Below are positions 3,504 through 35,705 of a stretch of 64,000 bases of DNA, one piece after another. The position numbers were made by a program, and so were the translations under genes. This DNA comes from Methanoculleus oceani (GTDB lineage: Archaea; Halobacteriota; Methanomicrobia; Methanomicrobiales; Methanoculleaceae): NCBI RefSeq assembly GCF_023702065.1, contig NZ_QFDM01000002.1:62001-126000 (forward strand), in the 5' to 3' direction. The notes beneath the pieces are model-generated. The model had not been told where the DNA came from. It saw only the letters and a program-made list of their open reading frames with translations, and did no database searches. The stretch's first letter is position 1, and each line of letters opens with the position of its first letter.

Positions 3504-3851
3504 GGGGGGAGAAGGGGCGGCACGGCCTCTGTTAAGGCTTTGGAGGCCAGATGATTCTTAACGTCAGGATGTGCCGCGCTTCTACGCGTTGGGGTTCGGG
3601 CCGACTACGCACCTGTGGTGCGAGTGAGGAGGCCGGAGGCCGGGTGAGGTGGGGTCACAGGTAGAACCTTACGGGATAGAGACAGGGGAGGGGGGCATGC
3701 CCCCCTCCCCGTCAGCCCCTTCCCCATGGCGATACCCCCACGGCCCACTGCACCGAGCTTAACTCGATATCCGTCGGTTTTGCAATCCTGATCACTATAA
3801 ATCAGCGACGTCTAGCAGGGAACGCAAACTCCGCCTCCCATCCCTATTTCT
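3504..3851. other. Convergent intergenic region holding repeat copy A
   Basis: No gene was found in these 348 bases between aroD (+) and aroC (-). Just after aroD a possible hairpin (GGCCTC at 3524-3529 pairing with GAGGCC at 3543-3548) may end its transcript. The rest is mainly the hairpin-rich repeat described separately. Confidence 0.7.
3608..3770 (+). repeat. Mosaic hairpin repeat, copy A
   Basis: The copy contains, in order, a small hairpin (CGCACC, loop TGT, GGTGCG, 3608-3622), the module GAGGAGGCCGGAGGCCGGG ending in GAGGTGGGG, a perfect 26-base palindrome centred on GCATGC (3685-3710, arms GGGGAGGGGG/CCCCCTCCCC), and a tail reading ATGGCGATACCCCCACGG then CCACTGCACCGAGCTT. Modules and order match copy B near 27.85-28.0 kb, and parts match copy C in reverse orientation near 35.4-35.7 kb. 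Confidence 0.85.
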
Positions 3852-27635: not shown

Positions 27636-28113
27636 TGGAGGTTGGGGTGCGGTCGGGAGACTGCATCCGGTTCTTTTCGCGGATGGTGACCGGCTGTGCG
27701 GGCTCCTCTTGCGCAGGATTACTTAGTTCTCCATTGATTGCTCGCCCGTACGCGGCTTTCCATTGGACATCGCCACGCACTGCCCCCGCCCCTCTGGGGC
27801 GGGGAACGACTGCCGGGAGCGTAGCGGACGGCGGGAATTTGAGCACCGTCAGGTGCGGAGGAGGAGGCCGGAGGCCGGGCGAGGTGGGGCTTGACGAAAA
27901 GTGCAGCTCTTTGCGAACCAGAGACAGGAGAGGGGGGCATGCCCCCCTCCCCGTCAGCCCCTCCCCCAATGGCGATACTCCCACGGTCCACTGTACCGAG
28001 CTTTTTCATCGTTTTGACCGTTCAATCTGCCAGAGGAAATTGCGGAGGGCGTCACTTACCTCGTCGCAGCCCCTCCGGGGCCCATACTACTGCAACCTGG
28101 ATCGCCGGATCTC
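27636..28113. other. Convergent intergenic region holding repeat copy B
   Basis: These 478 bases between pspC (+) and uvrB (-) contain no convincing gene. Repeat copy B occupies about 27770-28003. The part before it (27650-27770) contains ATCCGGTTCTT, which recurs near 35600 in the copy C region, so the repeat unit may be larger than the obvious core. Confidence 0.65.
27770..28003 (+). repeat. Mosaic hairpin repeat, copy B
   Basis: In order: CGCCACGCACTG, hairpin CCCCGCCCC-TCT-GGGGCGGGG (27784-27804), hairpin GCACC-GTCA-GGTGC (27843-27856), the GAGGAGGCCGGAGGCCGGG module, then GAGACAGG and a near-perfect palindrome centred on GCATGC (about 27927-27952, one mismatch pair), and the tail ending CCACTGTACCGAGCTT. 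The last two-thirds match copy A closely; the first hairpin matches copy C1. Confidence 0.85.
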
Positions 28114-35379: not shown

Positions 35380-35465
35380 GTACGCGATCAGCCCCCACCC
35401 CACCCGGCCTCCGGCCTCCTCCCCCGCCCCCTGGGGCGGGGGCAGTGCGTGGCGATATCCCCCCG
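35380..35465 (-). repeat. Mosaic hairpin repeat, copy C1 (reverse orientation)
   Basis: Read on the minus strand this has ATCGCCACGCACTG, then hairpin arms CCCCCGCCCC/GGGGCGGGGG (35421-35442, two-base loop), then GAGGAGGCCGGAGGCCGGG and GGGGTGGGGGCTGA, matching the left half of copy B. Confidence 0.8.
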
Positions 35466-35589
35466 TAAGCCGAGCACAGGATCTCGACTGGTGGAGGGTG
35501 CAAGTTACAACCTGAACTTCAGAGCAACGAACCTCAATACAGTACTGCTCCAGGTTACACAGGCAAAAACAGTGGCTGGAATGGGTTGC

Positions 35590-35705
35590 AGGATAACCGA
35601 ATCCGGTTCTTCTCCCGAGTTGTCCCCGGGCAGTGGACCGTGGTGGATATCGCCACGGGGGGAGGGGTCGGGGAGGGGGAGACCCCCTCCCCGTCTGATA
35701 AGGCA
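35590..35705 (-). repeat. Mosaic hairpin repeat, copy C2 (reverse orientation)
   Basis: A hairpin with arms GGGGAGGGGG/CCCCCTCCCC and loop AGA (35670-35692) is followed on the minus strand by the CGTGGCGATATCC and CACGGTCCACTGCCC tail, matching the right half of copies A and B. The stem equals theirs while the loop differs. Confidence 0.8.

Follow-up and report, generated by a model that had tools for sequence, protein, structure and literature searches.

A structured, mosaic repeat family of Methanoculleus that probably represents a non-autonomous IS5-family element

Introduction

Three of the spaces between convergent genes in the 64,000-nucleotide stretch of the Methanoculleus oceani genome analysed here (the window) are occupied by a hairpin-rich mosaic repeat. 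What kind of element is this, how did it spread, and why does it lie where genes end? A sequence-only reading of the window had offered several answers: a bidirectional terminator, a REP-like element, a MITE-like element or a structured RNA. The MITE-like answer is the one that gained ground, through the identification in related genomes of copies with terminal inverted repeats (TIRs) and 8-bp target site duplications (TSDs), and of an IS5-family insertion sequence (IS) with a matching end. These three features together define a non-autonomous element of the IS5 type, and we consider it very probable that the repeats are such an element (MITE), spread through Methanoculleus. A terminator or RNA role for them is at most hypothetical.

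Results

Copies in the window

The three copies, with their shared ordered modules, were found where the sequence-only reading had placed them, and a repeat search of the window recovered them as repeats D7, D11 and I3-I6 (77-96% identity over 26-61 nt). Their neighbours are indeed convergent in each case: genes for 3-dehydroquinase (DHquinase_I) and chorismate synthase around copy A, PspC and UvrB around copy B, and DUF5591 and the RuBisCO large chain around copy C, which is inverted relative to the other two, as had been reported.

Across the family, the core reads, from X to Y: X end (CCCGTGCACGGMTTTCCA), inner repeat ATATCGCCA, hairpin 1 (CCCCGCCCC/GGGGCGGGG), hairpin 2 (arms GGCC/GGCC or GCGC/GCGC), a long-range helix (GGGGTGGGG/CCCCWCCCC) enclosing a variable linker of ~25 nt and hairpin 3 (GGGGAGGGGG/CCCCCTCCCC), and then inner repeat TGGCGATAT and the Y end (CCACGGTCCACTGTACCGGGCTTTT). 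Only copy B is complete (27747..28011, plus strand). It comprises the X end (27747..27766), inner inverted-repeat arm ATCGCCACG (27769..27777), hairpin 1 (27785..27804), one nested double-hairpin unit of the 43-bp type inserted 3' of hairpin 1 (27805..27858, delimited by comparison with copies devoid of it), hairpin 2 (27866..27876), the linker, hairpin 3 (27927..27952), inner arm TGGCGATA (27970..27977) and a Y end with a T-run (CCACGGTCCACTGTACCGAGCTTTTTCATCG; 27981..28011). Copy A (3609..3763, plus strand) is a partial element without X end and hairpin 1; it retains hairpin 2 (GGCC-GGA-GGCC, 3631..3641; other copies have compensatory GGCC<->GCGC variants), hairpin 3 (GGGGAGGGGGG-CATG-CCCCCCTCCCC, 3685..3710), inner arm TGGCGATA (3727..3734) and the Y end (3738..3763). 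Copy C (minus strand) is permuted, with Y joined to X (35393-35695): X, inner repeat, hairpin 1 and hairpin 2 occupy 35393..35500, while hairpin 3, inner repeat and Y occupy 35631..35695, so that the minus strand reads hp3-Y ... X-hp1-hp2 with a spacer of 130-150 bp. Its right arm is similar to that of the TIR-ended subfamily described below for ~20 nt past Y. No recognisable TIR or TSD was detected at any of the window copies, which counts against the MITE reading.

A copy without nested units folds as RNA at -113 kcal/mol (z = -5). For copy B, nested unit included, folding as DNA gives a z of only -1.6. In an alignment of 18 copies, 91% of cells in the proposed pairs are compatible with pairing, compared with ~50-57% in slid controls. 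Changes on both sides were seen at 10 of 56 pairs (shuffle mean 5.7), and the main stems contribute few of these; true double changes fall mainly in hairpin 2 (GGCC<->GCGC) and in the stems of nested units. The earlier observation that loops vary and stems hold is correct as far as it goes, yet the main stems are too invariant to test pairing much, and the selection on structure deduced from it is weakly indicated by these counts. Support from covariation in the stems is real but thin.

Copy number and distribution

The proposal that many more copies exist per genome was well founded: the 2.46-Mb genome containing the window (M. oceani, below) has 44 copy clusters and one further copy found through its ends, i.e. 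~45. The family is present in 34 of 35 Methanoculleus genomes. Outside the genus, strong matches were obtained in one genome only (G080, of another genus of the same family; E = 4e-42), the remaining matches being weak and short. A congener of G080 (G081) gave no matches to the element, so that its presence in G080 may reflect transfer or contamination. An Rfam scan of the window yielded no family at the gathering threshold.

All three M. oceani contigs end in or near copies (C1:121-197 and 1011465-1011535; C2:1-74 and 921442-921572; C3:1-59 and 521804-521862). At two of these ends, implausible poly-G/poly-C runs occur inside hairpin 3, which indicates failure of sequencing or assembly at this point. 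A copy in G003 (L239) is flanked by genes of one C1 end and one C3 end of M. oceani. The family accounts for breaks in Methanoculleus assemblies.

Gene context

The repeats had been said to sit only between convergent genes. With neighbour orientation taken from a home-made hexamer gene caller, 19 of the M. oceani copies are convergent, 14 tandem and 4 divergent, six lie at contig ends and one inside a predicted gene. The rule does not hold, and what remains is a strong excess. The convergent share is 19/37 classifiable copies, against 15% of the other gaps in the same stretches (Fisher p = 4e-6), a background drawn from stretches that were themselves chosen around copies; set against intergenic length, the excess has p = 8e-10. 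Three relatives, with 22 convergent, 16 tandem and 2 divergent copies (p = 4e-9), bear it out, and the TIR-ended copies with both neighbours known (n = 15) are distributed as 11, 4 and 0, respectively. Relative to tandem genes the M. oceani copies show no orientation bias (8 same, 6 opposite). Convergent gaps without a copy have a median length of 20-38 bp, and those with a copy contain ~255 bp of extra DNA.

Orthologous sites

Comparison between species revealed both filled and empty sites. The uvrB-side site (copy B) is occupied in most Methanoculleus genomes, in both orientations; at the aroC site (copy A), about ten species have a copy, and three species with the same neighbour have none (L118, L125, L126). 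Sites shared with M. oceani account for 10 of 13 sampled copies in G003, 5 of 6 places in G007 and about 5 of 17 in G026; the G003 value is steadier than expected of an active element and counts against the MITE reading. At 18 shared sites the orientation is the same in 12 and flipped in 6. As a probe of vertical inheritance, the linker could be compared at five of these 18 sites, and the ortholog was the best match at one.

Gaps at empty orthologous sites measure ~0-60 bp and those at filled sites ~370-620 bp. Filled sites exceed empty ones by 370-560 bp, more than the 200-270 bp between X and Y, and a scan for TSDs at the X/Y ends of 33 paired M. oceani-type copies gave nothing above shuffles. 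Both results indicate that the element does not terminate at X and Y.

Terminal inverted repeats and target duplications

The real ends were recognised in relatives. In G026, the ends of a 518-bp unit that contains one copy read GGCCCTGTTGAAA/TTTCAACAGAGCC, and the 8-bp duplication flanking it, CTTTTTCC, is exact. The arm past Y was found in 23 of 35 genomes, in up to 14 copies each, mostly stopping at the same terminal base. In relatives, ~18 loci have the TIR GGCTYTGTTGAAACCC at either end; the core resides there within complete elements of 223-817 bp whose interiors consist of hairpins and repeats only, with no coding sequence of their own. Exact 8-bp TSDs flank L226/L258, L262, L263, L265, L268, L269, L281 and L282. 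As L263 and L282 agree in both the duplication and the adjoining flank and may stem from a single event, the number of independent insertions is seven or eight. Three further elements have 8-bp TSDs with one mismatch. L275 and L276, from two genomes, likewise look like a single event.

The 63 distinct 8-mers beside TIRs, which include single-ended and shared insertions and hence are not 63 fully independent sites, are 66% AT, compared with 45% in the flanks. They follow the pattern S-W6-S, with G/C favoured at both outer positions and A/T inside, and 17 of the 63 contain A/T runs of at least 5.

The core, from X to Y, is common to the M. oceani copies and the TIR-ended elements, mostly at 75-80% identity and over up to ~240 bp. 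One M. oceani copy (L083) matches a TIR-ended copy at 79.8% over ~240 bp (E = 2e-51); the alignment extends past X by ~26 nt and past Y by ~45 nt, and GATCGGAATAGGGT is kept beside the expected end. A profile search of the M. oceani stretches with the TIR-ended arms returned two significant, partial matches only (L083 and L090). The Y arms of this genome have a conserved stretch of their own of ~45 nt, unlike the TIR-ended subfamily, which counts against the MITE reading; neither alignment nor all-against-all comparison of M. oceani-type copies revealed an outer end beyond it, and a k-mer search for such ends was swamped by orthologous gene sequence. An arm of hairpin 3 is kept in 40-42 of 45 M. 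oceani copies, and anything TIR-like occurs within 200 bp in three. The near-invariance of core arms in copies that have lost their ends also speaks against the MITE reading. Another Y arm of ~150 nt (CCCGGGATCTCTCACGGTTATGG...) was noticed in L062, L230, L240, L242 and L249, at two or more sites, and possibly marks a further subfamily with its own ends.

A candidate partner insertion sequence

In G014 and G026, many contig ends bear the TIR GGCTYTGTTGAATTCC, as would be the case for an IS present in multiple copies, and the C-terminus encoded at these ends led us to a complete IS in G001. This 1010-bp element (L304:1501-2510) is flanked by an exact 8-bp TSD, CAAGCATC, and has the ends GGCTCTGTTGAATTCC and GGCTCTGTTGAAACCC; across 16 bp, the latter does not differ from the end of the MITE. 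It encodes a 288-aa transposase of the IS5 family (NF033579, E = 1.9e-68, 231 bits against a cut-off of 140; Pfam DDE_Tnp_1, 78 bits against 23). Beyond the terminal 16 bp the MITE and the IS have little in common, which counts against the MITE reading, and the M. oceani genome contains no such IS or transposase and no TIR-ended right arm.

The IS6 family had been suspected from the start of the TIR and the 8-bp TSD. It was rejected: no IS6 transposase scored above the cut-off in the 35 genomes, and G014, G018 and G026 gave no IS6 matches at all. Two transposase-like genes of G000 (C2:843223-845644) reach 111 and 48 bits, short of the 125 bits required for IS6, with no convincing matching TIRs near them.

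Nested units and rearranged copies

A second small repeat family, with a fixed linker of the GGAGCATGAG type, occurs nested in the first and in tandem arrays. Its units of ~43 bp have the structure hairpin - GGAGCATGAG - hairpin and are found inside hairpin 1, inside hairpin 3, after TGGCGATA and beside X (besides the unit of copy B, examples are L250:4945-5070 and C2:515209-515334). Stem sequence varies between units and pairing is kept. A stricter scan detected 29 units in 441 kb of M. oceani stretches; the reversed sequence yielded 1, and 325 kb surrounding aroC in other genera yielded none. The mobility of these units rests on one case, a three-unit array cleanly gained or lost after an oligo-T tract (L250 vs L092 of M. 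oceani).

Larger rearrangements were also observed. The core is inverted relative to X/Y in 4 of 22 scorable copies. Permuted or dimeric copies, with Y joined to X by 25-150 bp, comprise window copy C, L090, L229 and L279; in L279 one TIR pair encloses two cores.

Discussion

The origin and spread of the repeats

The proposed complete form is TIR, left arm, X, hairpins 1, 2 and 3, Y, right arm and TIR, flanked by an 8-bp duplication. A resident IS5-family transposase, encoded by an IS with the same 16-bp end, would presumably cut at the TIRs in trans. The preferred insertion sites would be AT-rich 8-mers of the form S-W6-S, which in many cases are oligo-T or oligo-A tracts. The location of these tracts at the 3' ends of archaeal genes, together with the minimal harm done by insertion there, could explain the accumulation of copies between convergent genes and their scarcity between divergent ones. 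Archaeal terminators use U-tracts (PMC8716108), and AT-rich, oligo-T targets are therefore a plausible cause of the bias towards gene 3' ends, one that offers a concrete and testable reason why repeats gather between convergent genes. Lower harm at 3' ends, as argued for the BOX, RUP and SPRITE repeats (PMC3049150), may be another.

The mosaic character of the family would have three sources: double-hairpin units of ~43 bp that enter the element and multiply there as tandem arrays; inversions, either of the core or of the element as a whole, of the kind produced by recombination between inverted arms, which is presumably also the cause of the orientation flips between species; and the formation of dimer-like or permuted copies.

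As the genome of the window has neither the transposase nor TIR-ended copies, the window copies look like either old, immobile copies with eroded ends, or members of a sister subfamily with other, unrecognised ends. We infer that they once had IS5-type TIR ends. That core arms are better kept than ends is a puzzle: selection, gene conversion or the possession of different ends would all fit. It is doubtful, though conceivable, that the hairpin core was maintained after mobility was lost, either as domesticated, orientation-independent 3'-end or chromatin elements used genus-wide or through homogenisation by gene conversion; this idea draws on the near-invariant core arms of end-less copies and on sites that are shared between species in either orientation.

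Alternative explanations

A different history, which we regard as unlikely, would make the hairpin core an independent element, bounded by its own ends X and Y, which an IS5-type MITE took up in some species, the window copies never having been part of that MITE. The ~45 M. oceani copies with no TIR-ended right arm, their different Y arm, and the resemblance (by eye) of X and Y to imperfect inverted repeats of each other would suit this history. Against it, the filled sites show that more than the X-Y segment came in, no TSD is associated with X/Y, and the L083 alignment passes both X and Y and preserves a motif by the expected end. If true, it would change the history of the repeats and not their class.

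Considerably less probable is that the repeats are bidirectional terminators or 3'-end structures that belong to the host and are preserved by selection where genes end. The excess between convergent genes, the conserved multi-hairpin RNA fold, a T-run just outside Y in 17/31 ends, the many sites occupied across species and the conservation of core arms where ends are lost would all be expected of such structures. The T-run, however, is a feature of the Y side (1/35 on the X side), 18 of 37 classifiable M. oceani copies are not between convergent genes, and tandem gaps show no strand bias, so that the repeats do not look like intrinsic or bidirectional terminators. Moreover, the short convergent gaps free of copies evidently need none, the repeats are essentially restricted to one genus with many sites empty in relatives, and the TIR and TSD account for their spread. 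Least credible of all, to a degree that leaves it little room, is an origin as REP/BIME-type palindromes moved by a Y1 (RAYT/IS200-like) HUH transposase: high copy number, extragenic location, hairpins, mosaic structure and a preference for gene 3' ends are shared, but complete copies are bounded by inverted terminal repeats and flanked by 8-bp duplications, and the enzyme of the IS with the matching end is of the DDE (IS5) type. HUH elements are not known to make such a target duplication.

Comparison with known elements

The interpretation as an IS5-type MITE provides Methanoculleus, a genus common in biogas plants, with a defined MITE, an IS with a matching end and a target preference. No earlier description of the family was found in the literature searched, which left out most subscription journals; the family is new and its class familiar, with an interior that is unusually structured and nested. 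The closest relatives in kind are the archaeal MITEs derived from IS5-family elements (for example derivatives of ISMbu10, ISMba19, ISMma12 and ISMac15; PMC3852290), which likewise are short, lack coding sequence, occur in many copies and have ~16-bp TIRs that link them to an IS5-family IS. They measure 140-252 bp with direct repeats of 0-3 bp, whereas the Methanoculleus element has 8-bp duplications, a conserved three-hairpin interior and nested repeats; the paper describing them does not name Methanoculleus.

In architecture and placement, the family recalls BOX, RUP and SPRITE of Streptococcus pneumoniae (PMC3049150), which also combine modular hairpins with variable inner modules, are in excess between convergent genes and are restricted to a lineage. 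About half of their insertions are common to all strains, and they are read as slow parasites (PMC3049150); they are also nested in one another (PMC10969869). The likeness is one of description: the host belongs to another domain, and the Methanoculleus copies provide TIR, TSD and a matching transposase.

The nested units of ~43 bp are comparable with the SMRs of Haloquadratum walsbyi (PMC3119063), which insert into mobile elements without target duplication, just as these units show no clear duplication, and, again by description, with mitochondrial double-hairpin elements (PMC2800124), which vary their stems and keep two hairpins. Finally, the occurrence of either orientation at an orthologous site has a parallel in Wolbachia, where ISs are inverted by TIR-TIR recombination (PMC3004938); such flips affect 9% of loci there, compared with 6 of 18 sites between species in Methanoculleus.
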